This document shows, in pieces, positions 2 to 19,654 of a DNA stretch of 36,525 bases. The DNA is taken from assembly GCA_947631155.1 (NCBI GenBank), contig CANRKG010000014.1, positions 1 through 36,525 of the forward strand, read 5' to 3'. Numbering within the stretch: position 1 is the first letter of the stretch; each line of letters opens with the position of its first letter. The notes under the pieces are model-generated. The model had not been told where the DNA came from, made no database searches, and was given only the letters and a program-made list of their open reading frames with translations. Made by a program: the position numbers and the translations under genes. The stretch is from an uncultured Bacilli bacterium. GTDB taxonomy: Bacteria; Bacillota_I; Bacilli_A; RF39; UBA660.

Positions 2-3000
2 ATAGTAGCAGGCTCAACAGATGTAACAAGCAATTATAATATTAAATATGTTCAAGGTAACTTAACAATTAATAAAGTAAATGTTGCAACAGGAAGTTGT
101 AAATCAGGATTAATATATAATGGAGGAAGTCAAGATTTACTAAATAAAGTAGTAGGAGTAACCTATTCAGTAGAAAAAGGAACTGATGCAAAAGATTATA
201 CTATAACAGTAACTCCAGATGGAAACCATAAATTTTCAGATAATGCTGCGAACAAAACATTAACATGTTCAATAGCAAAGAAAGATATCACAGTAACATG
301 GTCAGGGTTAGAAACAACATATGATGGACAAACAAAGACACCAACAGCAACAGCAACAACAGATATATCAGGTGAAACAATAGCATTTACAGTAACAGGA
401 GGAGCATCAGCAGCAGGAGATCATAAAGTAACAGCAACATGTAGTAAAGTAACAGGAGGACGAGAATTATGTTCTAATTATAATCCAACACCATTAACTA
501 ACACTTTAAAAATAAAAAAAGCAGAAGCAAAAGAAGGATCTTGTATATCAGGTTTAGAATATATAGGAAGTCCTCGAAACTTAGTAACAGCAGGAACAGG
601 AGTAACGTATTCAAGTACAACAGCAGCAGTATCAGGAACAATTGTAAAAGGAACAGATGCAAAAGATTATACTATAACAGTAACCCCAGATTCTAATCAT
701 GAATTTAAAGATGGAAAAACAACAAAGACATTAACGTGTAAGATAACACCAAAACCAATCACAGTAACATGGTCAGGGTTAGAAACAACATATGATGGAC
801 AAACAAAGACACCAACAGCAACAGCAACAACAGATATATCAGGTGAAACAATAGCATTTACAGTAACAGGAGGAGCATCAGCAGCAGGAGATCATAAAGT
901 AACAGCAACATGTAGTAAAGTAACAGGAGGACGAGAATTATGTTCTAATTATAATCCAACACCATTAACTAACACTTTAAAAATAAAAAAAGCAGAAGCA
1001 AAAGAAGGATCTTGTATATCAGGTTTAGAATATATAGGAAGTCCTCGAAACTTAGTAACAGCAGGAACAGGAGTAACGTATTCAAGTACAACAGCAGCAG
1101 TATCAGGAACAATTGTAAAAGGAACAGATGCAAAAGATTATACTATAACAGTAACCCCAGATTCTAATCATGAATTTAAAGATGGAAAAACAACAAAGAC
1201 ATTAACGTGTAAGATAACACCAAAATCAATTACAGTACCATGGGGGAACCCTGCAACATTTACATATAATGGAACTGCACAAGCACCATCAGTTGGATCG
1301 GCAACGGGAGTACCAGGAGAAACAATAGGCTTTGCAGTATCAGGAGCAAAAAAGGATGCAAACACAACATCAGAATCAACATATACAGCAACAGCAGATT
1401 GTATACATGTAGAAGGAGGGCAAGGACTATGCAGTAACTATAATTTTACTCCAAAAACTAAATCATTCACAATAGAAAAAGCAACACCAACAATAAAACT
1501 TGATCAAACTTCATTAGAAGTTGATGAATCTGCATCAACTACCTTTAATGCAATGGCAAGTGTAAGTGGAACTATTATTGCATCAATAGGACAGCCAATT
1601 GCTACAGTAAGTGGTAATGGTGATGTAAATGCAAATACCAATAAACAAATAACGGTGACAGGAAAAGCAGCAGGATCAGCTGATATAACAGTATCATTTA
1701 CTCCATCAGATGCTAGAAATTATAATTCAGCTTCAACAACTATTCCACTAACAGTATATAAGGTATGGAAAGTAACTTTCCACAATGTTTCAGGAGCTAA
1801 ATTAGATTCAAAAGAGTCTGATATAATTCAATCTTGTAGAATAGATAATGGTAATTGCTCTGTTCCAGTACCTAAGATAACAACTACCGATAATGGGTGG
1901 AATCCACTAGGTTATTCCCACGTTAATAACTCAACTTCTCATATAGATATGTATGAGACTGCAGATTCAATAAGTTATGCAGCCTCAATTCAAGGTTCTA
2001 GTAATACCTATGGTCAATATTCAGATTATTATGCAATAATATATAAATCCCTATCAGTTAGTCTGGAAGCTACAACGGTTGCAGGTGCTAAACCAAGTTA
2101 TACATCAGCATCTTGTGATATATATCCATGGTCTAGTTCAGATAGTAATGATAAAAAATATTGTAATACTACTTTACCTTCTATAAGTGTAACTGGAAGT
2201 GTTAGTAATAAGTATTATGCTACAAATACTACAACCGCATATTCTGATAGTACTTTAACAGAAAACTCTCAATATCAACTTAAAGATGGTTCAAATTATA
2301 CTTTATATGCAATGGCTCAAAAACCAATTAAAGCAACTTTTTCAAATAGCTATAAATATGCTACACTTCCTGAACCTATATCTTGTAATGTGTATGGTAG
2401 TGTCACTTCATGTAACGTAGTATTACCAGATATTACAACAACCAATGAAGGCTTTACTAAAAAATGGAAAAGTGAGACGGGAGTACTTTATACTCCAAAT
2501 GATGAAGAGAATCCACCACTCATTAGTAAAGATACAACTTTCACAACAAATATTACAGATATTGATGGACCACATGTATGTTTATCTTCACAAACACCTA
2601 ATGGAGTTATTGATATTTATAAATCACATGAAAAAAGTGTCTATCATACAACGGTTTTGAAGGTTGTTGATAATGCTAATTATGGTACTACTACTAATTT
2701 TAGTGCATATTTCTCTAAACAACCATCTTATATTGTAGGAGGAAAAACAATTAATGTAAGTATAGATAGTAGTAATGGCAATCGTACCAACAAACGAGTA
2801 GAGTGTGACGGTGTTGTAGGATATGGAACTGAGTATACGTTCAATTATAGTATAATGCCAAATAATTTGCCTCCACCAGGTAAAGCATATTATTCAATAT
2901 CTGATGGTGATTGGAAAGATTCTAGTGGTAATAAATCAGAATATAATGCATTAGTTTTAGGTCTTACCTGGTATGATAGTGCAAGTAGTTATCCTTACAA

Positions 3001-3025
3001 TTCACCATATTCAATTGCATGGTAA
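2..3025 (+). CDS. Large secreted Ig-like repeat surface protein (5' end outside window)
   Basis: The reading frame is open from the first bases, so this is the last 1007 residues of a larger protein. Two domain types alternate. Type A (about 82 aa, roughly 287-532, 758-1003 and 1229-1480) has a TYDG or TYNG motif, GETI and a CSNYN ending, and resembles MBG/YDG-type beta-sandwich repeats. Type B (about 75 aa) carries GSC near its start, KDYTITVTP, and LTC near its end. A Big_2-like domain follows (about 1487-1760), then three C-terminal modules with an SC...C pair and an LP-ITTT-like motif. Each A and B domain has exactly two cysteines, so one disulfide per domain is plausible. No LPXTG motif or C-terminal membrane segment is seen; the protein ends in SIAW. 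A role as adhesin or surface stalk is inferred from architecture only. Thr, Ala, Gly and Val codons end almost always in A up to about 1500, then shift to mixed use. Confidence 0.85.
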   Translation: MVAGSTDVTSNYNIKYVQGNLTINKVNVATGSCKSGLIYNGGSQDLLNKVVGVTYSVEKGTDAKDYTITVTPDGNHKFSDNAANKTLTCSIAKKDITVTWSGLETTYDGQTKTPTATATTDISGETIAFTVTGGASAAGDHKVTATCSKVTGGRELCSNYNPTPLTNTLKIKKAEAKEGSCISGLEYIGSPRNLVTAGTGVTYSSTTAAVSGTIVKGTDAKDYTITVTPDSNHEFKDGKTTKTLTCKITPKPITVTWSGLETTYDGQTKTPTATATTDISGETIAFTVTGGASAAGDHKVTATCSKVTGGRELCSNYNPTPLTNTLKIKKAEAKEGSCISGLEYIGSPRNLVTAGTGVTYSSTTAAVSGTIVKGTDAKDYTITVTPDSNHEFKDGKTTKTLTCKITPKSITVPWGNPATFTYNGTAQAPSVGSATGVPGETIGFAVSGAKKDANTTSESTYTATADCIHVEGGQGLCSNYNFTPKTKSFTIEKATPTIKLDQTSLEVDESASTTFNAMASVSGTIIASIGQPIATVSGNGDVNANTNKQITVTGKAAGSADITVSFTPSDARNYNSASTTIPLTVYKVWKVTFHNVSGAKLDSKESDIIQSCRIDNGNCSVPVPKITTTDNGWNPLGYSHVNNSTSHIDMYETADSISYAASIQGSSNTYGQYSDYYAIIYKSLSVSLEATTVAGAKPSYTSASCDIYPWSSSDSNDKKYCNTTLPSISVTGSVSNKYYATNTTTAYSDSTLTENSQYQLKDGSNYTLYAMAQKPIKATFSNSYKYATLPEPISCNVYGSVTSCNVVLPDITTTNEGFTKKWKSETGVLYTPNDEENPPLISKDTTFTTNITDIDGPHVCLSSQTPNGVIDIYKSHEKSVYHTTVLKVVDNANYGTTTNFSAYFSKQPSYIVGGKTINVSIDSSNGNRTNKRVECDGVVGYGTEYTFNYSIMPNNLPPPGKAYYSISDGDWKDSSGNKSEYNALVLGLTWYDSASSYPYNSPYSIAW
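287..757 (+). repeat. 471-bp tandem repeat, copy 1
   Basis: First copy of a head-to-tail duplication inside the surface-protein gene. It encodes one type A plus one type B domain (157 residues). Aligned by eye to 758-1228 it differs at a single base, C755 versus T1226. Confidence 0.95.
758..1228 (+). repeat. 471-bp tandem repeat, copy 2
   Basis: Second copy, in frame with the first. The type A domain that follows (from 1229) is clearly diverged, so the duplication covers one A+B unit only. Near-identity including silent sites points to recent unequal crossing-over or slippage, or to an assembly duplication. Confidence 0.95.
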
Positions 3026-4081: not shown

Positions 4082-5629
4082 ATGTCTTTGAAAAGAAGAA
4101 TTTTAATTTCAATTTTATTGGGATTATATCTTTCTATAGCAACATCTTCTATGACTTGGGATAGAAGTGTTTATATATTTTTTATTGTCAAAACTATTGT
4201 ATTTATATTTTTATTATTTTTTATAATTAAGTATCTTAATAAAATTAAGATACCTAAATATAATGGTAAGATAACTAAGAAAACTTATGTAGGGTGGTTT
4301 ATATATATATTTATAGTAATGTTACTTGCTTTATACATTTATTATCCTAATAACTATAGTAGTGATCCATTAACACATTATCAAGATGCCATAGCAGGTA
4401 TTCATTCAGATTGGCATCCCACTATTTATGTATTTTTATTCTATGGATTGCCAACTTTATTTATTAAAAGTAAACTTATGTGTTCTTTATTTAATATGTT
4501 ATTTATTTCTTTTATACTATTATACTTTTGTAAGTTTTTAGAAAAATATGGATTTAGTAAACTAGTCATAACTATCGTTTTAAGTTTATTTATTTTAAAT
4601 CCTACTTTTGATAGTATGACTATTACTCCAATTAAAGATACAGCTTATTCTTATTGTATATTTTTATTAACATTGTATTTGATAAATATTTATTTTACTA
4701 AGGGGGAATGGCTTAAGAAAAAGCTTAATTTTATAGCCTTTTTAGTAGCATGTTTTGGATTAACCTTTTTTAGGCATAATGGAATAGGAACCTTTATATT
4801 AGTACTAATTCCTATGATATTTATTTTTAAGAATATAAGAAAATTTAGTATATTGGTATTTACCATAATAATAAGTTTAAGATTTATATTTATACCAGTT
4901 ATATATAAATTATGTGGTATAGATAAAGTAACATTTAATTTTAGTGAATCTACTGCCTTATTATTTCATCAAATTTCTTATATTTATAATAATGACGGTG
5001 TCATAACTTCTAAACAATTAAAAACTTTGCAAAAAATGCAAGATTTAAAAACTTTATCTGAGTATTATGATCCTTATAATTATAATACAACAAAGTATGC
5101 TATGCCAAATTATGGTAAATATACTAAGTATATAGAATCTCATAAAAAAGAATTCTTAAATTTATGGTATGAATTAGTTAGTAATAATAAAAAGCTCGCT
5201 GTTAAGTCATATTTTTATCATACATATTGTATTTGGCATATTGATATTAATGTAGCAAAAGTATTAGATGAATATTATAAACAAATTCATTCTGCTAATT
5301 TAGATAGGACAGATGCTCTATATAAAGTTCTCAGTAATATATATTTACAATATCAACATTGGTTTTGTTTAGTTCCATTTATTTTTATAACTGTAGGGAG
5401 TGGTTTATTTTTAATTTTATTTTCTCTATTATATAGTTTTTTTAAAGTTAAAGATAAACTTAAAATGACTTTAATATATCTTCCAGTTTTTTCCAATTTA
5501 TTAATTATGCTAGTTATGATTCCAAGTAAAGAATCACGTTTTGTATATTCAAATTTGATTTGTGCCTTTCCATTAATAATTTTTATATTTTTACTTAATA
5601 ATAGAAAAAATATAAAAGCTAGTTTATAG
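4082..5629 (+). CDS. Polytopic membrane protein, DUF6020/GT-C glycosyltransferase-like
   Basis: 515 residues with roughly 10-12 hydrophobic helices. After the second or third helix an exported loop carries DPLTHYQDAIAG followed by SDWHP. This acidic loop plus HP pattern is typical of DUF6020-type proteins and of GT-C membrane glycosyltransferases that use lipid-linked sugars. Further conserved-looking motifs are LNPTFD, PIKDTAYSY and FFRHNG. The last third has another exported segment and a final pair of helices. The ribosome site AGGTGG precedes the start. The gene lies 14 nt upstream of a same-length paralog. Likely role: adding a sugar or similar group to a surface polymer or glycolipid; substrate unknown. 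The family name is from memory of its motifs. Confidence 0.65.
   Translation: MSLKRRILISILLGLYLSIATSSMTWDRSVYIFFIVKTIVFIFLLFFIIKYLNKIKIPKYNGKITKKTYVGWFIYIFIVMLLALYIYYPNNYSSDPLTHYQDAIAGIHSDWHPTIYVFLFYGLPTLFIKSKLMCSLFNMLFISFILLYFCKFLEKYGFSKLVITIVLSLFILNPTFDSMTITPIKDTAYSYCIFLLTLYLINIYFTKGEWLKKKLNFIAFLVACFGLTFFRHNGIGTFILVLIPMIFIFKNIRKFSILVFTIIISLRFIFIPVIYKLCGIDKVTFNFSESTALLFHQISYIYNNDGVITSKQLKTLQKMQDLKTLSEYYDPYNYNTTKYAMPNYGKYTKYIESHKKEFLNLWYELVSNNKKLAVKSYFYHTYCIWHIDINVAKVLDEYYKQIHSANLDRTDALYKVLSNIYLQYQHWFCLVPFIFITVGSGLFLILFSLLYSFFKVKDKLKMTLIYLPVFSNLLIMLVMIPSKESRFVYSNLICAFPLIIFIFLLNNRKNIKASL
4648..4915 (+). repeat. Shared 268-bp block, copy A (gene-conversion-like)
   Basis: Nearly identical to 6210-6477, with only a few differences seen by eye near the middle, including third-codon positions. 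Flanking parts of the two paralogs are clearly diverged at DNA and protein level. Confidence 0.85.
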
Positions 5630-5643
5630 AAAAGAGGTTTTTT

Positions 5644-7191
5644 ATGGAAAATAAGAAAAAATTAATAATTTCTATTATATTAGGAATATACCTAAGTTTA
5701 GTGACATCACCAGTATAATGGCAATGGTATTTATATATATTTTTTATCTTAAAATCCTACATTTTTTCATACTTATTATTTAAATTAATTGGGTATATTG
5801 ATAAAGTTAATTTATCTAAAAAAAATAATAAAATAACTAAAAAAACATATTTTTATTGGGGAATTTATATTTTAATAATTATGCTTGGCGCTTTATTTGT
5901 TCATTATCCTAATGGTTTTATGTATGATCAAAAAGAACAACTTACACAAGCACTTAGTGGTAATTATAATGATTGGCATCCAGTTATTCATACATTGTTA
6001 TTTTATAGATTACCAACTTTATTTATTAAAAGTAAGATTATGTGTTCTATATTTCAAATGAGTTTAATCTTGATTATTTTATTATACTTTTGTAAGTTTT
6101 TAGAAAAATATGGATTAAATAAATATATAATTACAATTATTTTAAGTTTATTTATTTTAAATCCTACTTTTGATTATATGGCAATAATTCCAGTAAAAGA
6201 TACAGCCTGTTCTTATTGTATATTTTTATTAACATTGTATTTGATAAATATTTATTTTACTAAGGGGGAATGGCTTAAGAAAAAACTCAATTTTATAGCC
6301 TTTTTAGTAGTATGTTTTGGATTAACCTTTTTTAGGCATAATGGAATAGGAACCTTTATATTAGTACTAATTCCTATGATATTTATTTTTAAGAATATAA
6401 GAAAATTTAGTATATTGGTATTTACCATAATAATAAGTTTAAGATTTATATTTATACCAGTTATATATAAATTATGTAATATTTATAAAGTTAATTTTAC
6501 TTTTTCAGAGATTAGTTGTATTATGCTTAATCAATTAACTTATATTTACTATAATAATGGTGATATAAGTGCTGAGGAATTGAAAAAATTAAGTAAAATG
6601 CAAGATCTTGAGATTGTATATCGTGGTGGATATGATCCATATAATTATGATAGTATCAAGTTTGATAGCGATTTTTATACAGTTAAATCGCCTTATATAA
6701 ATACTCATATAAAAGAGTTTTTAAAACTATATTATAATATAATTAAGAAAAATAAAAAAATGACCTTAGATTCTTATTTATATTCGACTTATATGATTTG
6801 GCATGTTAATTTAGATAATGAAAAGGATTTAAGACATTTAAGTTGGGACTATTTTGTTACACCAGATAATAAGTTTGTTGCAAATTATGTGACTATGAAA
6901 ATTAATTTTTGTCATTTTCCCTGGGCACTTGTTTTCTTTGGTTCAGGTATATCGATATTTTTGATAATTTTTTCACTTTGTTATGTATTATGCACTAATA
7001 AAAATAAACTTAAACTATTGCTTATCTATTTACCAGTTTTAACTAATTTGGCAGTAGTTTTTATGATTTTACCTAGTTGGCAAACAAGATTTATTTACCC
7101 TAACTTAGTATGTGCAATTCCACTTATTCTTCTTATGTTTTTAGCAAAAGATAAGAAAAGTATTTCTCATTTAAAATTAAATGAAGAGTAA
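5644..7191 (+). pseudogene. Paralog of the 4082 membrane protein, broken by an in-frame TAA
   Basis: Read through, this frame gives 515 codons, the same length as the upstream paralog. It aligns from the start: ISIILGIYLS versus ISILLGLYLS, then YIFFILK versus YIFFIVK. Codon 25 is TAA (5716-5718), directly followed by TGG-CAA-TGG, where the paralog has a sense codon before TW. A ribosome site (AAGAGG) precedes 5644. The remaining open part can begin at ATG 5881 but would lack the first two membrane helices, and no clear ribosome site lies before it. The downstream part is otherwise intact and keeps the motifs NDWHP, LNPTFD, PVKDTA and FRHNG. The nonsense change is therefore recent, a phase/population variant, or a sequencing error. 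It ends just before a strong terminator. Confidence 0.75.
6210..6477 (+). repeat. Shared 268-bp block, copy B
   Basis: Partner of 4648-4915. It covers the PTM-rich middle of the protein, including the FRHNG motif region. Confidence 0.85.
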
Positions 7192-9844: not shown

Positions 9845-12391
9845 ATGGCGAAAAAACAACAAATACAAACTGTAATGGAAAAAATCTTTGATTATACTTT
9901 AGAAGATATAATGGGAGAAAGATTTGGAAGTTATTCTAAATATATTATTCAAGATCGTGCTATTCCTGATGCTAGAGATGGGTTAAAACCTGTTCAACGA
10001 CGTATTTTATATTCTATGCATAAAGAAAAGAATACTTATGATAGAGGTTATCGTAAAAGTGCTAAAACCGTTGGAGATGTAATTGGTAATTATCATCCTC
10101 ATGGTGATACTTCAATTTATGATGCAATGGTTCGAATGAGTCAAGCTTGGAAAACTAGAAATCCTTATATTGATATGCATGGTAATAATGGTTCAATTGA
10201 TGGAGATAGTCCCGCTGCTTATCGTTATACTGAGGCTAGATTATCGAAGATTAGTAACGAAATGCTTAGAGATCTTGATAAAAATACAGTTGAATTTTCG
10301 CCTAATTTTGATGACACTACAGAAGAACCGACGGTTTTACCTGCCAGGTTTCCAGCTTTACTTGTTTATGGTGCACAAGGTATTTCAGCAGGTTATGCTA
10401 CAAATATTCCACCGCATAACTTAGAAGAAATTATTGATGCAACAGTACATAGAATTGATAATCCTAATTGTTCATTAGATACATTAATGAAATATGTTCA
10501 AGGTCCTGATTTTCCTACTGGTGGAATAGTTGAAGGTATTGATGGCATAAGACAAGCTTATGAAACAGGTCGTGGTCGTATTATTATTAGAAGTCGTTAT
10601 AATTTTGAAGAAGAAAAAGGAAAAACTTCGATAGTTATTACAGAAATTCCATTTGAATCTAACAAAACACAAATGGTCAAAAAAATGGACGATATTAGAA
10701 TTGATAAAAAGATAGATGGTATTTTAGAAGTAAGAGATGAATCTGCCGCTGATGTTAGAATTGTCATTGATTTAAAAAAGGGTACTGATAAGGATTTGGT
10801 TGTAAATTATTTACTTAAAAATACTGATATGCAAATAAGTTATAATTTTAATATGGTTGCAATTGTCAATAAAAGACCAAAGTTAGTTGGTTTATGTACA
10901 GCTTTAGACGCTTTTATTTCTCATCAAAAAGAAGTTGTAACTCGTCGTACCAAATTTGATTTAGAGCACGCTAAAGCTAGACTACATATTGTTGATGGTT
11001 TAATTAAATGTATTTCTATTTTAGATGAAGTCATTAAAGTTATTAGAGCTAGTAAAAATAAAGCGGATGCCAAAGTCAATTTAGTTAACGAATTTGCTTT
11101 TTCAGAACGCCAAGCAGAAGCGATTGTCATGTTACAATTATATCGTCTTACCAATACAGATGTAGTTGAATTAGAAGAAGAAAAATTAAAATTACAAAAA
11201 ATTATAGATGGATTAAATAAAATTTTAGATAATCCAGAAGTATTAAAAAGTGTCATGAAAAAAGAGTTAAAAGACATCAAGAAGAATTATCCAACACCTA
11301 GAATAACTGATATTAAAGAAGACATAACGGAAATTAAAATTGATAATACAGTAATGATTCCAAAAGAAGATGTAATTGTTACTGTCACTAATGATGGTTA
11401 TATTAAAAGAACTAGTTTGAGAAGTTATCAAGCAAGTAGTGATGAACTACCAACTTTAAAAGAAAACGACTATATTATTGGTCAATTTGAATTATCTACT
11501 ATGGATACATTGTTAGTCTTTACTACTAGTGGAAATTATCTTTATATACCAGTTCATACTATTTTTGATATTAAATGGAAAGATATGGGAAAACATGTTT
11601 CCAATTTAATTGAGATTGGTCAAGGAGAAAGAATAATCTCAGCGATACCAATATATTCTTTTGAAACAAATCAAAATATAATTATTGCATCTCAAAACGG
11701 AATGATTAAACGTACTAAAATTAGTGACTTTAAATTAACCCGTTATTCTAAGCCTGTTAGTTGTATTAAACTAAAAGATGATGATAGTTTAATCGCAGCT
11801 TTTATAGAAAAAGAAAAATATGTTTTTCTAACAACTGATTCTGGTTATGGCTTAAGTTATAAAACTGAAGATATTCCAATTGTTGGTGTTAAAGCTAGTG
11901 GTGTTAAATCTATGAAGCTTAAAGACGATAAAATAGTTTCAGTAAATAATTTTGATTATCAAAATCAAGAATTTATCTCTATTATTACTGATAAGGGTAC
12001 TGGTAAGAGAATTAGACTGAGTGAATTTCCAATCTCTTCTCGTGCTTTAAGAGGATTATTAGTCATTCGTGAAGTTAAGACTAATCCATATAAAATAATT
12101 AAAACTTTTATTACAGATAATAAGAAATATATCGGGATTAAAAATGGTAGTATTAAGGAATTAAAAGTTACAGAATTACCAATTTTTGACCGTTATTCCA
12201 CAGGTAGTCAAATATCTAAGAGTGAACTTAATGATGCTTATATAGTAAGTGAATTATTAAAAAAAGAAGATAGTGAAAAAAACATTTCATTAGAAGAAGT
12301 TCCTAATGTCCAAAAAGAATCCAAAAAAGAGCAAATCTCTTTACAAGAGATAGATGATAGGTTAATGACTATTGATGATTTCTTAGATTAA
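9845..12391 (+). CDS. parC: DNA topoisomerase IV subunit A
   Basis: 848 residues, the DNA breakage-reunion subunit. The winged-helix part contains DGLKPVQRRILYSM and HPHGDTSIYDAM (84-95). The active-site tyrosine is Tyr128 in AAYRYTEARL. QGISAGYATNIPPHN follows, and then the tower and coiled-coil gate (ERQAEAIVMLQLYRLTN). The C-terminal third forms the degenerate beta-pinwheel with repeats such as TNDGYIKR, TSGNYLY, SQNGMIKR and TDKGTGKR. The quinolone-determining positions read Thr89 and Asp93 where Staphylococcus ParC has Ser80 and Glu84. The tail (last 60 residues) is acidic and lysine-rich. The next gene starts only 26 nt later with no terminator, so read-through into the acyl-transfer cassette is likely. 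Confidence 0.93.
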   Translation: MAKKQQIQTVMEKIFDYTLEDIMGERFGSYSKYIIQDRAIPDARDGLKPVQRRILYSMHKEKNTYDRGYRKSAKTVGDVIGNYHPHGDTSIYDAMVRMSQAWKTRNPYIDMHGNNGSIDGDSPAAYRYTEARLSKISNEMLRDLDKNTVEFSPNFDDTTEEPTVLPARFPALLVYGAQGISAGYATNIPPHNLEEIIDATVHRIDNPNCSLDTLMKYVQGPDFPTGGIVEGIDGIRQAYETGRGRIIIRSRYNFEEEKGKTSIVITEIPFESNKTQMVKKMDDIRIDKKIDGILEVRDESAADVRIVIDLKKGTDKDLVVNYLLKNTDMQISYNFNMVAIVNKRPKLVGLCTALDAFISHQKEVVTRRTKFDLEHAKARLHIVDGLIKCISILDEVIKVIRASKNKADAKVNLVNEFAFSERQAEAIVMLQLYRLTNTDVVELEEEKLKLQKIIDGLNKILDNPEVLKSVMKKELKDIKKNYPTPRITDIKEDITEIKIDNTVMIPKEDVIVTVTNDGYIKRTSLRSYQASSDELPTLKENDYIIGQFELSTMDTLLVFTTSGNYLYIPVHTIFDIKWKDMGKHVSNLIEIGQGERIISAIPIYSFETNQNIIIASQNGMIKRTKISDFKLTRYSKPVSCIKLKDDDSLIAAFIEKEKYVFLTTDSGYGLSYKTEDIPIVGVKASGVKSMKLKDDKIVSVNNFDYQNQEFISIITDKGTGKRIRLSEFPISSRALRGLLVIREVKTNPYKIIKTFITDNKKYIGIKNGSIKELKVTELPIFDRYSTGSQISKSELNDAYIVSELLKKEDSEKNISLEEVPNVQKESKKEQISLQEIDDRLMTIDDFLD

Positions 12392-12417: not shown

Positions 12418-12936
12418 ATGTATATGAAGAGAGCTCGTGTTTTTCTTTTAAAACTTGATAGCTCTCAACCTATCGATAAATTAGAGCTTTTAAAAGTAAT
12501 CTTAAGAAAATATTATGATATAGATATTTGTAAAAAGGATATTTATTATAATAAATATGGTAAACCTCTGCATAAAGATTTTTACTTTAATTTTTCAGAC
12601 TCAAAAAATTATATGGCTCTTATTATTGGTAGTGGTGATGTTGGTATTGATATTGAATATCAACGTTGTATTCCTAAAGGAATGATAGATAATATTATAA
12701 ACGAAAATGAAAAGCCTTTAAAATATAATGCATTATATTATTGGGTATGTAAGGAAGCTTATGTTAAATATCTAGGAACGGGGATAAATAATTATTTCAG
12801 TAAACTAGATATAGCAAAGATTACAAAAGATGTATATACTTATAAATATATTGTTGCTGATTTATATTTATGGGCTTTTTCTTCTGTTCAAATATGCAAT
12901 AAAATTATTGAATTGAATGTGAGTGACATGTTATAA
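12418..12936 (+). CDS. Sfp-type 4'-phosphopantetheinyl transferase
   Basis: 172 residues. It would transfer phosphopantetheine from CoA to the serine of a carrier protein, most simply the ACP encoded next door. Diagnostic motifs are NFSDSKNYMAL (the usual N-x-SH(S) block), GIDIE (Asp78 and Glu80, Mg/CoA binding) and WVCKEAYVKYLGTG (the WxxKEAxxK signature, Lys112-Glu113). It is short compared with Sfp (about 224 aa), missing mainly linker and C-terminal parts. Start 12418 has the site AGGTGA; ATG 12424 is an alternative two codons in. It opens the five-gene acyl-transfer cassette, 27 nt before the ACP gene. A private PPTase suggests that the general AcpS does not serve this carrier. Confidence 0.85.
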   Translation: MYMKRARVFLLKLDSSQPIDKLELLKVILRKYYDIDICKKDIYYNKYGKPLHKDFYFNFSDSKNYMALIIGSGDVGIDIEYQRCIPKGMIDNIINENEKPLKYNALYYWVCKEAYVKYLGTGINNYFSKLDIAKITKDVYTYKYIVADLYLWAFSSVQICNKIIELNVSDML

Positions 12937-12963
12937 TATAGATATATAATTAGAGGTATTTTT

Positions 12964-13203
12964 ATGGAAGAAAAATTAGATAAAATTTTAAGAGAAACAT
13001 TATTTTTAGAAGCAAATTTTAAAATTACAGACGATTTATTTGTTGGAAGTATTGTAGAATGGGATAGTTTAGCACATATGAACTTGATATATAATCTTAA
13101 TACTAAATTTGATATTTCAATATCTTTTACTGAATTAAGTAAAATCAGTAATTGGGGTGAACTAAAGAAATTAGTCATTGCTAAAACAGAAGGAAATAAT
13201 TAA
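12964..13203 (+). CDS. Acyl/aminoacyl carrier protein (DltC-like)
   Basis: 79 residues with the four-helix carrier-protein pattern. The phosphopantetheine attachment serine is Ser35 in VEWDSLAHMNLI. This EWDSLAHM form is typical of stand-alone carrier proteins of peripheral pathways rather than of the fatty-acid ACP (usually ADSLD). The second helix and ISISFTELSKISNWGEL fit the conserved C-terminal half. A ribosome site (AGAGG) precedes the start. The stop codon ends one base before the ATG of the ligase gene, so the two are probably translationally coupled. It is proposed to carry the thioester substrate between the ligase and the membrane acyltransferase. Confidence 0.88.
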   Translation: MEEKLDKILRETLFLEANFKITDDLFVGSIVEWDSLAHMNLIYNLNTKFDISISFTELSKISNWGELKKLVIAKTEGNN

Positions 13204-13204
13204 T

Positions 13205-14566
13205 ATGATGCTATTAGAAAAAATTAAGTATTTTGCTACTAATACTCCAGATAAAACCGCTATGATTATATCTTCGAAAGTAATTTCTTATCAAGATTTC
13301 TATAAAAATATTATTAAATGTGCCAATTACTTAAAAAAAGAAACAGTTGCTAAGGGAGATATTATCATCTTTGAAAATACTCAAGATGAATTTTTTTGTT
13401 ATATATTTTTTGCAATTAATTTATTAAATGCTATTGCATTACCAATTGATAAAAGTAATGCCTATAAAGTAAATGAAATAAAAAAGAAGGTTAATGCCAA
13501 AATAGTCATTTCAATTGAAGATATTAAAGAAAATTTAGAAAATAGTTCAAATGATGAAATAGAAATCACAGCTGTTACGGATAATCCATGTTTATTGTTG
13601 CTATCTTCTGGATCTACAGGATATGAAAAAGTTATTGAGTATAGTAATGATACGGTATATCATATAGTTCAGGTATACCCAGATATTTATAATATTGATG
13701 CTAATTTTATGGTTTTACCAACGGGACCTTTATGTCGTGCTTATTCAATTACTAGAATGTTTTTAGCCTTTTATTATGGCATGTCATTATGTATTTTCGA
13801 TAGTCAAAATGTTATTGATTTACTAAGTTTGTGTAGTCAATATAAACATATTTTATTGTCAACTAATCCTACTATGATTCATTATTTAATTACTTTATTT
13901 GGTGAGAAATTTAGTTCATGCTTGAATAATATAGAAATTATCGAAAGTTGTACTGCTCCTCTTAATAGTAATGATGCTAAAATTTTGGCGGATATGTTAA
14001 AGAAGACCAAATTTTATAATTTTTATGGAGCTACTGAATATCAAATAGCATATTTAGATATTTTAAAATACGGTTATAAAAAAGGCTGTGTGGGAAAATT
14101 ATTAGAAAGTACAGTGGTAGAAATACTTGATGAAGAAGGAAATATTATTAAGTCAGATAAAAATCATCCAGGAGTTATTAGAATTTATAATGAAGAATAT
14201 GGTTTTAAATATTTTAAAGAGAAACAACAAAAATACTTTTATCCTGGCGAAGTAGGTTATATCGAAAATGGGTTATTATATCTGGTTGACCGTGAAAAAA
14301 ATTTCTTTAATATTAACGGTTATAAAACATCGCCAACGGAGATTGAAGATTTAGTACTGACATATCCAGGAGTTTTAGAATGTATTTGCTATTACAAAGA
14401 AGTATTATCTTTAGATATAGTAGTTAAGGGTAATTTCGATATTTCCAAACTTAAGGTATATTTAAAAGACCATTTATATAAATATCAAGTTCCCAAAAAG
14501 ATAAATATTGTTACAAGTATTGCTAAAACTTCTAACGGTAAACTTAATCGAAGAATATATAATTAG
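13205..14566 (+). CDS. AMP-forming acyl/aminoacyl-carrier-protein ligase (DltA-like)
   Basis: 453 residues from ATG 13205. That start is preferred because AGGAA lies 9 nt upstream; a longer TTG start would overlap the ACP gene. It belongs to the ANL adenylation superfamily: P-loop SSGSTG (134-139), NFYGATE (272-278), GEVGY and LVDREKNFFNINGYKTSPTEIE (hinge and A8 region), and the C-terminal catalytic lysine in SNGKLNRR (Lys446). It would activate a carboxylic or amino acid with ATP and load it on the adjacent carrier protein. It is about 50 residues shorter than typical DltA, and the motifs SSGSTG and NFYGATE differ from the DltA forms TSGTTG and NTYGPTE. The substrate therefore need not be D-alanine. 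The MBOAT gene follows after 20 nt. Confidence 0.88.
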   Translation: MMLLEKIKYFATNTPDKTAMIISSKVISYQDFYKNIIKCANYLKKETVAKGDIIIFENTQDEFFCYIFFAINLLNAIALPIDKSNAYKVNEIKKKVNAKIVISIEDIKENLENSSNDEIEITAVTDNPCLLLLSSGSTGYEKVIEYSNDTVYHIVQVYPDIYNIDANFMVLPTGPLCRAYSITRMFLAFYYGMSLCIFDSQNVIDLLSLCSQYKHILLSTNPTMIHYLITLFGEKFSSCLNNIEIIESCTAPLNSNDAKILADMLKKTKFYNFYGATEYQIAYLDILKYGYKKGCVGKLLESTVVEILDEEGNIIKSDKNHPGVIRIYNEEYGFKYFKEKQQKYFYPGEVGYIENGLLYLVDREKNFFNINGYKTSPTEIEDLVLTYPGVLECICYYKEVLSLDIVVKGNFDISKLKVYLKDHLYKYQVPKKINIVTSIAKTSNGKLNRRIYN

Positions 14567-14586
14567 TAGTAAAGGAGCCTTGTTGT

Positions 14587-15981
14587 ATGTTTTTTTCTTC
14601 TTCTATTTTTCTTTTCTTTTTTTTGCCATTATGTCTTATTTTATATTTTAATCCTTTTATTAAAAATACAAAGTATAAGAATGTTATTTTATTAATCTTT
14701 AGTATAATTTTTTATTTTTGTAATTCTAGAAAATACTTTTGGTTATTATGTGTTTCAATTTTATTTAATTATTTTATTAGTATTATTTTATATAAAACTA
14801 AGTATAAAAAGACTTTGTTATTTATAGATATTGGTGTAAATATATTTATTTTATCATATTTTAAAGTACTAGGAGTTGGTTCCAGTATCTCTAATAAATT
14901 ATTACCAACTGTAGCTCCATTAGGCTTAGCTTTTTATACTTTTCAAGAAATATCTTATATTGTAGACGTATATAGAAAAGTAATTGAAAAACCAGAAAGT
15001 ATTTTTAAATTTGCTTTATATATTTTTTTATTTCCACAATTGATATCAGGACCAATTGTTAGATATGATGATATTAAAGAGCAATTAGAAAAAAGACATT
15101 ATAAAGTTAATAATTTAAATCAAGGAATTAGTCAATTTATCATTGGTTTGTTTAAAAAGTGTGTTATTGCTGATTCTATGGCATATTGTACTGAACAGAT
15201 GTTTTTAGCTGGTAGTAGCAGTATCTGTTATGCCTGGTTAACTGCTATATTTTTAGTTCTTTATTTATATTATGATTTTAGTGCCTATTCCAATATGGCT
15301 ATAGGATTATTAAAAATATTTGGATTTGATAAAATCAAAAAGAATTTTGATTATCCTTATGCAGCAAAATCAATTACTGAATTTTGGCGAAAATGGAATA
15401 TCTCATTAGGAACTTGGTTTAATGATTATGTATTATATCCGTTATGTAATAGTAAAATATATTTTAAAATAATGGGATTTTTAAAAAGAATCTTTAATCA
15501 GAAATGGGCCTTTAAAATTTGTAATTTTATTGTACATCTAGTTGTTTGGATTTTAGTTGGATTATGGCATGGATTAGGAATTAATTTTTGTTACTTTGGA
15601 ATTTATTATTTTGTATTTTTAATAATTGAAAAGAACTTCTCACTTATTAAAAAATTAGGATTTTTATCACATATATATACATTAATAGTTATATGTGTTG
15701 GAACTATTATATTTTTCTCTTTTTCAGATCCAAGTTTTAGCTTCTTTAAATCCTTATTCATTAATAATAACTTTATTGATAACAATGTCTTATTACTTTT
15801 ATCTGGTTATAAATATTTGTTATTAACTGCTATAATTGGAGCTTTTCCTATAACAAAACTATTTCATAAATTTAAATACTATCAAGGACTTAAAAGTTTT
15901 ATTTTAATTATTATGTTTATAATATCTATTTATTTTATTAGTGCTTCTTCAGACACTCCTTTTATCTATTTTAATTTTTGA
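14587..15981 (+). CDS. MBOAT-family membrane acyltransferase (AlgI/DltB-like)
   Basis: 464 residues with about 11 hydrophobic helices. Landmarks of the AlgI/PatA/DltB group are PLGLAFYTFQEISYIVDVYR, LFPQLISGPIVRY, YYDFSAYSNMAIG and SITEFWRKWNISLGTWF. The catalytic MBOAT histidine is His328 in VGLWHG. Position 271 is Asn (codon AAT) where AlgI, PatA and DltB have His in RxWHxSL. The normally following iPLGG is LYPLC here. The protein should move the acyl group from the loaded carrier protein across or onto the outer face of the membrane. It ends in a TGA stop 13 nt before the exported partner gene. The acceptor (teichoic acid, glycolipid, peptidoglycan) is not shown by the sequence. Confidence 0.88.
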   Translation: MFFSSSIFLFFFLPLCLILYFNPFIKNTKYKNVILLIFSIIFYFCNSRKYFWLLCVSILFNYFISIILYKTKYKKTLLFIDIGVNIFILSYFKVLGVGSSISNKLLPTVAPLGLAFYTFQEISYIVDVYRKVIEKPESIFKFALYIFLFPQLISGPIVRYDDIKEQLEKRHYKVNNLNQGISQFIIGLFKKCVIADSMAYCTEQMFLAGSSSICYAWLTAIFLVLYLYYDFSAYSNMAIGLLKIFGFDKIKKNFDYPYAAKSITEFWRKWNISLGTWFNDYVLYPLCNSKIYFKIMGFLKRIFNQKWAFKICNFIVHLVVWILVGLWHGLGINFCYFGIYYFVFLIIEKNFSLIKKLGFLSHIYTLIVICVGTIIFFSFSDPSFSFFKSLFINNNFIDNNVLLLLSGYKYLLLTAIIGAFPITKLFHKFKYYQGLKSFILIIMFIISIYFISASSDTPFIYFNF

Positions 15982-15994
15982 GGTGAGTTAAGAT

Positions 15995-17119
15995 ATGAAA
16001 ACAACTATATATGTTAAATTATTTTTTCTTATTATTTTTGTATTTTTTGCCTATTATATATATAATGTAGTCAATAATTTTACTAATAGTAATTATGATA
16101 TAAAGGGTAAAGATAACATTTTATTCTATAATAATTTAGTAAAAGGCTATACTAATATTAATTCTATTGTTAATCATAAATTTTCAATATTAAAAACTTC
16201 TGATAATAAAAAAATACAATTGTATCAAAGTAGTAATACAAAAAACATCATTGAATTAGAAGATGTTTATACTGGTTTAGAAGGTTATGAGACTTCGAAT
16301 ATTATATCTTTTGCTACGTACATTAAGGATTTAGGAATTGATTTTATTTATATGGAACCTCCATTAAAAGAATATTTTTATAAAGATATTTTAGCTAAGT
16401 ATAACTATAATATATATAATAATAATTATATAAATATGCTATCGGAATTTAAAAATAATAATATAGATTATTTAGATACTTATAAATTACTTGAAACTAG
16501 TAAAATTAATCGTAATGATTTATATTACCATAGTGATCATCATCCTAGATTAGAAACATCTTATTATATAACAAAAAAATTAGTAAAAAAATTAAATCGT
16601 GATTTTAATTATCAATTGGATACCGAACTACTCGCAAATGATAAATTTCATAAAAAAAACTTATCACATTCGCAAAATGGTTATTATACTAGATTATTAC
16701 AATTAAATTCTAAATTTTATGATGATTTTTCTTATTTATTGCCAAACTATAACACATCATATAAAGTATGCAATAATGATTGTGTTGTCGGAAATATGCA
16801 ATCAGTTATATATGAAAATATGCAGTTAATCGATAATGATCATTACCTTAGAATACCAGGTGGAACAGATGCAATGGTTAAGTATATTAATAATAATGCT
16901 CCTAATGATAAAAAAATAGTAATGATTGCCAATTCTTTCGTGAAAGGAATAATTCCTTTATTATCTTTAACTGTTAAAGAAATAGATGTCATTGATGTTA
17001 GAGTCGGTGTTGGTAATTTTAATGATGACTTAAAAAAGTATATTAAAGATAATAATCCTGATTTAGTTGTCTATTATACTAAATTATTTGGAGATGCAGA
17101 ATATAATCGATTATTGTAA
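15995..17119 (+). CDS. DHHW/SGNH-like exported protein (DltD/AlgX analogue)
   Basis: 374 residues. One N-terminal membrane helix (about 8-27) is followed by an extracytoplasmic domain. YYHSDHHPRLETSYY has Asp181-His182-His183, matching the DHHW signature of AlgX/AlgJ-like SGNH relatives. MIANSFVKGIIPLL (Ser314) lies where the nucleophile block (usually GDSF) is expected, here with Asn before Ser. DVIDVR with a late NPDLVVYYTK fits the last strands of that fold. MBOAT proteins of the alginate, PatA/PatB and dlt systems work with such an exported partner, so this is probably the acceptor-side transferase or binding protein. It is last in the cassette, with no terminator visible before ylbD. Confidence 0.75.
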   Translation: MKTTIYVKLFFLIIFVFFAYYIYNVVNNFTNSNYDIKGKDNILFYNNLVKGYTNINSIVNHKFSILKTSDNKKIQLYQSSNTKNIIELEDVYTGLEGYETSNIISFATYIKDLGIDFIYMEPPLKEYFYKDILAKYNYNIYNNNYINMLSEFKNNNIDYLDTYKLLETSKINRNDLYYHSDHHPRLETSYYITKKLVKKLNRDFNYQLDTELLANDKFHKKNLSHSQNGYYTRLLQLNSKFYDDFSYLLPNYNTSYKVCNNDCVVGNMQSVIYENMQLIDNDHYLRIPGGTDAMVKYINNNAPNDKKIVMIANSFVKGIIPLLSLTVKEIDVIDVRVGVGNFNDDLKKYIKDNNPDLVVYYTKLFGDAEYNRLL

Positions 17120-17169: not shown

Positions 17170-17526
17170 ATGTCTAAAGAATTATTTAAGAAATTTGTTA
17201 GAAAATATCCAGAACTTGGAAATAGTGTAATGGATGATAAGACTAGTTGGCAAAAGCTATATGAATTATATGAAATGTATGGAGAAGAAAGTAATATCTG
17301 GGATAAGTATATTGTTAAAAATCCAGTGGCTGTAACTTCAAAAAGTGGAGAGTCTTCGATAGGAGAACTTATTAATATGATAAAAAACGTAGATTTAGAA
17401 TCTGTTCAAAAAGGCGTTACTAACCTCCAAAAAACAATTGGATTGCTTCAAGATATAGGAATTGGTTCTAAAAGTAAAACACAAAATTATGAACCAAGAC
17501 CAATGTATCGTTATTTCGATGATTAA
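17170..17526 (+). CDS. ylbD: YlbD-family protein
   Basis: 118 residues. The N-terminal KKFVRKYPELGNSV, TSWQKLYELYEMYGEE and the IWDKY block match the YlbD family, named after a Bacillus spore-coat-associated protein. The C-terminal part, a helix with repeated glutamines and leucines, is also family-like. The gene order ylbD-ylbE-ylbF-rsmD repeats that of Bacillus subtilis except that ylbG is absent, which supports the call. The ribosome site AGGTGG lies upstream, and the stop overlaps the ylbE start by one base (TAATG). The function in a probably non-sporulating organism is unknown. Confidence 0.8.
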   Translation: MSKELFKKFVRKYPELGNSVMDDKTSWQKLYELYEMYGEESNIWDKYIVKNPVAVTSKSGESSIGELINMIKNVDLESVQKGVTNLQKTIGLLQDIGIGSKSKTQNYEPRPMYRYFDD

Positions 17527-18658: not shown

Positions 18659-19654
18659 GTGAAAAAAATAAATAATAGAGGCTTTGCTATATCTACCATG
18701 TTATATGGCCTATTAATTATTATGGTATTAATGATGGCATTACTTATGAATACTTTAGCCTTTACTAGAAATAACAGTAAAAAATTTGTTAATGAAGTTG
18801 TTGATGAATTACAAAAACGACAATTAGATATGAAATTAAAAGAAATAACCTTATATGGTGATGAAAATAAAAAATTATCAAAAGTTTATACTAAAACCGA
18901 TGAGAGTTATTGGGTTATAGTAGAATCTACGGGATATAAAGGAGGTATTAAAAAGAAATCAAATATATCAGGAAATACCGTAGTAGGTACTTTAACAACA
19001 ACAGCCGGTTTAAACCCAAATAATTCCAATCTAACATATGACGCTATTACAGCTAGTAATCCTGGTAATTCTAATACTATTTTTAGAATAAAGGTAGATA
19101 GCCCAAAGAATATAGCAATTGCCAAATTAACAATTACAATCAATGCAGGCGTGTTTGAGGCTTTTAATGATAATAGTATTACCAATAAAGAAATAAAAAT
19201 AGATGTAGGAGAAATAAGTGAAGATAAATTTAATGTCGTCCCATCTGTTAAAGGTTTGAATCAAGGTGGTTCAACATTTGAACTAACATTAAAACTTGAA
19301 AGAGAGTCTACACTACCTATAAAACCCAGTATACTTGATTATTTATCTGAAAATGCTTGGTGCAGTTGGAACAATGGGTTAGAGTCAAAAAATATTATTG
19401 ATAAAAATGTTCAAGATAATCAATTTCTTAGAAATGATTTACTAGTCTTTCTTACACATCCTATAAATCGATATACGTACACATATACTGTAGCACGTGC
19501 TGGAATTAAATGCACATTACCAGAAACTGAAGGTTTTTCAAAACAAGAAATAGATACAGGTTGGGAATTTTGTAATGCAGGTAAAACTAATGGTACTAAA
19601 ATTGACAAATGTTGTAGCTGGTGGATGCAAAAAATAGATCCAACATGCAGTTAA
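18659..19654 (+). CDS. Pilin-like surface protein with Cys-rich C-terminus
   Basis: 331 residues. The N-terminus KKINNRGFAIS followed by a long hydrophobic helix resembles a type IV prepilin leader (RG/F cleavage site) but has Thr, not Glu, at position +5. The start must be GTG 18659: an in-frame TAG lies at 18644, and a weak AGGG site is about 10 nt upstream. The middle has a beta-rich domain with small repeats (VGTLTTTAGLNPNNSNLTYD, IRIKVDSP-like strands). The last 90 residues hold seven cysteines (CSW, KCTLP, FCNAG, KCCSWW, TCS), suggesting a disulfide-bonded tip. No LPXTG motif is present. It is probably a membrane-held exported protein; assembly into a pilus is a guess. Stop is TAA, with the hrcA control region directly behind. 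Confidence 0.72.
   Translation: MKKINNRGFAISTMLYGLLIIMVLMMALLMNTLAFTRNNSKKFVNEVVDELQKRQLDMKLKEITLYGDENKKLSKVYTKTDESYWVIVESTGYKGGIKKKSNISGNTVVGTLTTTAGLNPNNSNLTYDAITASNPGNSNTIFRIKVDSPKNIAIAKLTITINAGVFEAFNDNSITNKEIKIDVGEISEDKFNVVPSVKGLNQGGSTFELTLKLERESTLPIKPSILDYLSENAWCSWNNGLESKNIIDKNVQDNQFLRNDLLVFLTHPINRYTYTYTVARAGIKCTLPETEGFSKQEIDTGWEFCNAGKTNGTKIDKCCSWWMQKIDPTCS

Follow-up and report, generated by a model that had tools for sequence, protein, structure and literature searches.

The 36,525-nucleotide stretch of contig CANRKG010000014.1 from an uncultured Bacilli bacterium (order RF39, family UBA660), referred to here as the window, carries between parC (end at 12391) and ylbD (start at 17170) a cassette of five genes on the forward strand, encoding a 4'-phosphopantetheinyl transferase (PPTase), a carrier protein with a DSL motif, an adenylating ligase, an MBOAT and an exported SGNH protein. 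This cassette is probably a self-contained, carrier-fed version of the PatA/PatB-type pathway of surface O-acylation. The reading builds on the observed gene set, its motifs and their conservation, the lineage of the proteins, and a genome in which neither a ketoacyl synthase nor a second PPTase was found. The source genome (G000) comprises 1.48 Mb in 64 contigs and is 96% complete and 6.9% contaminated. Its small size, its low GC content and the missing fatty-acid synthesis are in keeping with RF39, a gut order of uncultured bacteria.

A five-gene, same-strand cassette had been proposed in a preliminary description of the window, and family matches confirmed that it is real, as did the catalytic motifs, which are intact in each of the five proteins. 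The PPTase (12418..12936, +) is a short Sfp/HetI-like protein of 172 amino acids that matches PF01648 with 30.6 bits (cut-off 25) and contains both Sfp-type motifs, GIDIE and W..KEA..K, the latter as WVCKEAYVK. The carrier (12964..13203, +; 79 amino acids) scores below the threshold for PF00550, yet matches acyl carrier protein (ACP) models and a solved carrier (2lml, E=1.5e-10), and its Ser35 within DSL is invariant among relatives. The ligase (13205..14566, +; 453 amino acids) is an ANL enzyme (PF00501, 97.7 bits) with the motifs SSGSTG, NFYGATE and NGKLNRR. The first two had already been named for a ligase of 453 amino acids and hold, while the start was corrected to the ATG at 13205. The MBOAT (14587..15981, +; 464 amino acids; PF03062, 56.9 bits) has an LWHG motif with His328 and a C-terminal FIYFNF that includes Tyr461, both kept in relatives; it is devoid of a PLGG motif, and a segment of 47 residues lies between D280 and H328. 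The exported SGNH acyltransferase (15995..17119, +) is of the ALGX/PatB1 (DHHW-like) type with an N-terminal membrane anchor (PF16822 ALGX, 27.9; cut-off 26.5). It shows the SGNH catalytic motifs (PMC9487903) as SDHH (D181, H183), NS (S314) and DVR (oxyanion R336), and these four residues align with PatB1, the best structure match (5v8e, E=1.3e-19). The SGNH type had been recognised before, but the motif is DHHP and not DHHW as then assumed. Also the close spacing of the genes had been noted, with gaps given as 1–28 nucleotides; the measured gaps are 27, 1, 20 and 13 nucleotides within the cassette, with 26 nucleotides from parC to the PPTase gene and 50 to ylbD. Promoter-like sites at the cassette were not clearly above chance, and a terminator search found none.

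Judged from its proteins, the cassette would combine the front end of a Dlt pathway with a back end of the PatA/PatB type. The earlier suggestion of a mixture of Dlt and AlgI/PatA systems, which would move a carrier-activated acid through the membrane to a surface polymer, is thereby supported, as the predicted MBOAT has a fused shuttle and a PatB1-like SGNH partner. PatA1/PatB1, responsible for O-acetylation of the secondary cell-wall polysaccharide in Bacillus cereus/anthracis, as well as PatA/PatB and AlgI/AlgJ-X share with it the catalytic His and the fused C-terminal FXYXXF of the MBOAT and an adjoining exported SGNH protein with a triad, whose D/H, Ser and oxyanion Arg align with those of the cassette; moreover, the cassette MBOAT nests among such stand-alone MBOATs. 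However, these pairs use acyl-coenzyme A (CoA) and have no carrier, ligase or PPTase. In comparison with them, the cassette MBOAT is without PLGG, its segment before His328 is 17 residues longer, and the SGNH protein has DHHP in place of DHHW. The cassette fits the MBOAT-SGNH kind except for the predicted donor, which for the known pairs is acyl-CoA without a carrier.

With Dlt (DltABCD-X), the cassette has the ligase, carrier, MBOAT and exported SGNH protein in common, as well as cytosolic activation on a carrier followed by export through the MBOAT. It is nevertheless not a dlt operon, as several defining features were tested and are absent. The ligase reaches 56.8 bits with the dltA equivalog (cut-off 560) and the MBOAT, which belongs to another clade, 133.6 bits with the DltB equivalog TIGR04091 (cut-off 375). 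DltD (PF04914) was not matched by the SGNH protein, for which ALGX was the sole family above cut-off. The gene order differs from that of dlt, and the cassette has its own PPTase. A separate DltX microprotein is missing, the gaps of 1–27 nucleotides leaving no space for another gene, and none is needed because the C-terminus of the MBOAT itself (FIYFNF) fits FXYXXF, the acyl shuttle demonstrated for DltX and PatA (PMC12148441).

By homology, the pathway would proceed in four steps. The PPTase would attach phosphopantetheine to Ser35 of the carrier, and the ligase would then adenylate a carboxylic acid that has no free alpha-amino group, loading it onto the carrier. The loaded carrier would dock at the cytosolic mouth of the MBOAT, at the segment before His328, from where the acyl group would pass via His328 to Tyr461 of FIYFNF. 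Finally, Ser314 of the exported SGNH protein would take the acyl group from Tyr461 and esterify a surface glycan. The acceptor is probably a cell-wall glycopolymer. A poly(glycerol phosphate) wall teichoic acid is not favoured, because no TagB/F-type glycerol-phosphate polymerase (PF04464) was found in G000 or in the related genomes G005 and G008. For the acid on the carrier as for the acceptor polymer, we infer the identity.

Information on the acid came from an alignment of the window ligase and three relatives with DltA-like ligases of sister cassettes. In DltA, the amino group is bound by Asp197, and the choice of D-alanine depends on Cys269 (PMC11253843; PMC4176424). At the position of Asp197, Ala or Ser is found in the window ligase and its three relatives; they also have no Cys269 context but a TAPL/TSPL-type sequence where the DltA-like ligases have FCGE, and YGATE where these have YGPTE. 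An acid other than D-alanine, as already suggested in the preliminary description, is therefore supported by the pocket residues, and an amino acid seems unlikely as cargo. According to a review (PMC11253843; PMC4176424), Ala or Gly takes the Asp position in alpha-hydroxy-acid-activating domains, a parallel that might serve as a lead, but McyG illustrates that use of an amino-acid substrate does not strictly depend on this Asp. The candidates are hydroxy, aryl and simple short acids; we would guess at a small acid, either a hydroxy or a simple one, and not at an amino acid. Within the Bacilli samples searched, this specific ligase subfamily was seen in this genus alone.

The same machinery might also carry a medium- or long-chain acyl group and lipidate a surface polymer or glycolipid, which we consider unlikely. 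The best NCBIfam scores of the ligase are with acyl-CoA synthetase subfamilies, and the fatty acids of the host must be imported and activated. However, among solved structures the ligase matches aryl-acid, MenE and amino-acid ligases best, and the MBOAT and SGNH proteins are related to acetyl-transferring pairs.

The private PPTase finds an explanation in the metabolism of the host. The order RF39 is known to have lost the synthesis of fatty acids, which must therefore be imported (PMC6784871). A ketoacyl synthase was absent from G000 and from all family relatives searched except G015, and the cassette PPTase is the single PF01648 match in the G000 assembly. The cassette thus brings its own PPTase because the host has neither a fatty-acid synthase nor another PPTase. 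In a panel of 37 genomes of the family, a carrier-type MBOAT cassette was present in nine of the 10 genomes with a PPTase and in none of the 27 without (Fisher p=8e-8, no phylogenetic correction), while stand-alone MBOATs showed no association with PPTase (p=1). A wider family sample contained a PPTase in 51 of 326 genomes. Among 59 PPTase loci inspected, a carrier-cassette gene was nearby in 51 and an MBOAT in 30, a count that takes in carrier cassettes without MBOAT. In hosts with no other source, the PPTase thus seems to belong intrinsically to such cassettes.

These data also bear on the idea that two unrelated units lie side by side, which we regard as improbable. Ligase, carrier and PPTase would then be an acyl-ACP synthetase system by which a host without fatty-acid synthase supplies its phospholipids from exogenous fatty acids, and MBOAT and SGNH protein an ordinary acetyl-CoA-fed surface acetylase. 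The host indeed has to import fatty acids (PMC6784871), the ligase profile also matches acyl-ACP synthetase structures, albeit weakly (53 bits), and two ordinary MBOAT/SGNH pairs exist in G000. However, most relatives without fatty-acid synthase have no carrier or PPTase at all, and neither is therefore needed for phospholipids. Furthermore, PPTase presence follows the cassette MBOATs, ACP and PPTase adjoin the MBOAT even where the ligase gene is apart, and the window MBOAT is without the PLGG motif common to all stand-alone MBOATs. A functional analogue of Dlt, in which D-alanine would be loaded by the ligase and end up on a teichoic acid, agrees with the enzyme classes, their flow and the DltA structures among the ligase profile matches (3fcc, 89.5 bits), but is very improbable given the missing equivalents of Asp197 and Cys269 in the window ligase and its relatives, scores far under the curated cut-offs for dltA, dltB and dltC, an SGNH protein that is PatB1-like and not DltD, and no TagB/F homologue in G000.

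How a PatA-type MBOAT could be fed by a carrier was approached by comparing MBOATs. Pathways with a fused shuttle were reported to lack a carrier (PMC12148441), because they evidently use acyl-CoA, and the two further MBOAT/SGNH pairs elsewhere in G000, which are without carrier genes, agree with this pattern. In the Dlt system, DltC docks on helix HC of DltB (Met302, Val305, Ile306, Met309, Lys312) and on Arg317 of transmembrane helix 8, just before His336 (PMC11035591). In the segment equivalent to this docking helix, a PLGG(N/S)-type sequence was found in all 26 stand-alone MBOATs, which are labelled CoA-fed by analogy with PatA, and in none of the 36 carrier-linked ones (62 MBOATs compared). 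The segment is 27–31 residues long in stand-alone MBOATs; in the carrier-linked group it has 47 residues in 31 proteins, 37 in three Dlt proteins, 34 in a protein of G645 (a genome of another Bacilli family) and 30 in one of Metabacillus. The last two led to rejection of a rule by length alone (47 residues for carrier-fed), whereas the PLGG rule held. The correlation of PLGG with the donor is suggestive, and the carrier may dock at this segment.

When the docking segment was removed from the alignment before tree building, window-type MBOATs fell within the stand-alone ones (SH-aLRT 99), and grouping them in one clade with the family's other carrier-fed MBOATs was rejected (p-AU 0.005). On the best tree, donor and motif labels each change five times, in step. 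The placement of the window MBOAT apart from the other carrier-fed ones suggests an independent donor switch. A swap of the docking segment between the two clades was considered because of its equal length in both, and the sequence comparison was too weak to claim it. We tentatively propose, at somewhat less than an even chance, that an acetyl-CoA-fed PatA-type acetylase independently became carrier-fed by losing PLGG, gaining a 47-residue docking segment of the length found in the other clade, and recruiting ligase, carrier and private PPTase in a host with no other use for phosphopantetheine carriers, its cargo being an acid, but not an amino acid, as yet unreported from bacterial surfaces. 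If true, PLGG would allow the donor, CoA or carrier, to be predicted throughout the MBOAT family.

Co-occurrence of the five families in related genomes, which the preliminary description had put forward as a check, was looked for and found. In G008, all five genes recur in unchanged order with 82–92% identity at a different genomic location. In G004, carrier, PPTase, MBOAT and SGNH genes are followed by a ylbF-like gene, rsmD and the ligase gene within the same parC-hrcA neighbourhood. In G005, one contig carries MBOAT, carrier, PPTase, (membrane protein) and SGNH in this order, and the ligase gene follows rsmD on a second contig. Within the genus, all five families are present in four genomes and none in the others, except for G007 with a different cassette, a pattern to be read with the incompleteness of some assemblies in mind. 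As G008 keeps all five genes in order and the genus shows this all-or-none pattern, the cassette is not a product of chance; all-or-none presence despite differing gene orders also supports a single shared function. A search of genome contigs returned only the 92% copy and distant ligases, and no cassette relatives were found in viral contigs.

Several points weigh against a carrier-fed O-acylation pathway. The ligase gene is apart from the other cassette genes in G004 and G005, and no acid-making gene lies within the cassette. Eight of the 59 PPTase loci, several of them on short contigs, have no recognised cassette gene nearby, and the count over the family takes in MBOAT-free carrier cassettes. 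The length part of the donor rule has its exceptions in Metabacillus and G645, and two of the five label changes lie on well-supported branches, too few for significance. The proposed carrier docking rests on sequence, and the predicted models are poor for inspection of pocket or docking helix (pLDDT 38 for the MBOAT and 46 for the ligase).

Other carrier-fed MBOAT cassettes of the same family were defined in this analysis as types B, C and D. Like the window cassette, they have a carrier-linked MBOAT without PLGG and with the 47-residue segment, their own PPTase and an SGNH partner. They differ in MBOATs that form a separate clade (AU p=0.005), SGNH proteins that are not ALGX/PatB1-like and other ligases or loading enzymes. 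Type B (L045, L101, L140, L143-L146, L148-L150, L154, L157, L158, L162) consists of a DltA-like ligase, a LysA-like pyridoxal-phosphate decarboxylase, a carrier, an MBOAT of ~528 amino acids ending in PIYADF or similar, an SGNH-like protein and AcpS; decarboxylation of the amino acid on its carrier may precede export. Type C (L097, L100, L156, L164, L167, L168, L170, L173, L175) comprises an FkbH-like protein, a carrier, often a MaoC-like or epimerase-like protein, an MBOAT of 505–515 amino acids ending in FIYRQF or similar, an SGNH protein and AcpS, which suggests a putative glyceryl-derived cargo on a surface polymer. Type D combines ligase, carrier, MBOAT, SGNH protein and PPTase. In addition, an MBOAT-free cassette of a VanW-family protein, a ligase of 453–473 amino acids, a carrier and a PPTase is recurrent (L043 in G016, L135-L139); its ligase bears a DltA-like D-alanine signature (FSFDLS, FCGE), which hints at a possible action of VanW on a D-alanyl carrier.

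Outside the family, a plasmid of Metabacillus sp. B2-18 encodes a set of ACP, AMP-binding, MBOAT and hypothetical proteins. As in the window, the ligase is without the amino-binding Asp, the MBOAT ends in FIYGGF and is devoid of PLGG, and a fourth protein takes the SGNH position; it differs by its 30-residue MBOAT segment and by having no PPTase beside it, and the host presumably has a fatty-acid synthase. G645 has a ligase-carrier-MBOAT set, likewise with no PPTase beside it. As the core is found in both, the kind is broader than the family of the window, and the private PPTase looks like the version of hosts without fatty-acid synthase.

Further genes of the window were inspected. A DUF6020-like polytopic membrane protein (4082..5629, +; PF19484) has a homologue directly beside the cassette in G008 (synteny L040/L006). 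A second DUF6020-like gene (5644..7191, +) is interrupted by an in-frame TAA near codon 28 and is open only as a downstream reading frame of 436 amino acids, the intact G008 homologue beside the cassette having 521. The two paralogues (4082-5629 and 5881-7191) share a long near-identical internal stretch amid otherwise diverged sequence, which suggests that gene conversion may have occurred. The G008 cassette comes directly after two DUF6020-like proteins, homologues of window 4082-7191, and that of G005 has DUF2142 and YfhO-like membrane proteins at its flanks; for these neighbours we infer a role linked to membrane glycosylation of a surface polymer. Between rsmD and hrcA, positions 18659-19654 encode a protein with a prepilin-like N-terminus (NNRGFAISTMLYGLLIIMVLMM...), of which a 63-amino-acid version lies near the same place in G004. 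Positions 2-3025 encode a large repetitive surface-type protein with near-identical repeats of >100 residues, truncated by the start of the window.

The preliminary description had regarded the system as its best candidate for an undescribed surface modification. A published description of a ligase-carrier-PPTase-MBOAT-SGNH cassette was not found among the papers searched; the system is, however, not unique, as its core also occurs elsewhere. This, the C-terminal shuttle hexapeptide, the reason for the private PPTase and the other carrier-fed cassettes of the family had been overlooked. The mechanism of MBOAT-SGNH acylation was settled recently, and systems with a fused shuttle were said to use acyl-CoA without a carrier (PMC12148441). 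The window cassette is a fused-shuttle system that does have a carrier, a ligase and a PPTase. This suggests that the donors of MBOAT-SGNH systems are swappable and that a short motif beside the catalytic His may separate CoA-fed from carrier-fed MBOATs. It also suggests that in many uncultured gut Bacilli that lost fatty-acid synthesis, PPTases are retained to serve carrier cassettes, a large share of which include surface-modifying MBOATs.

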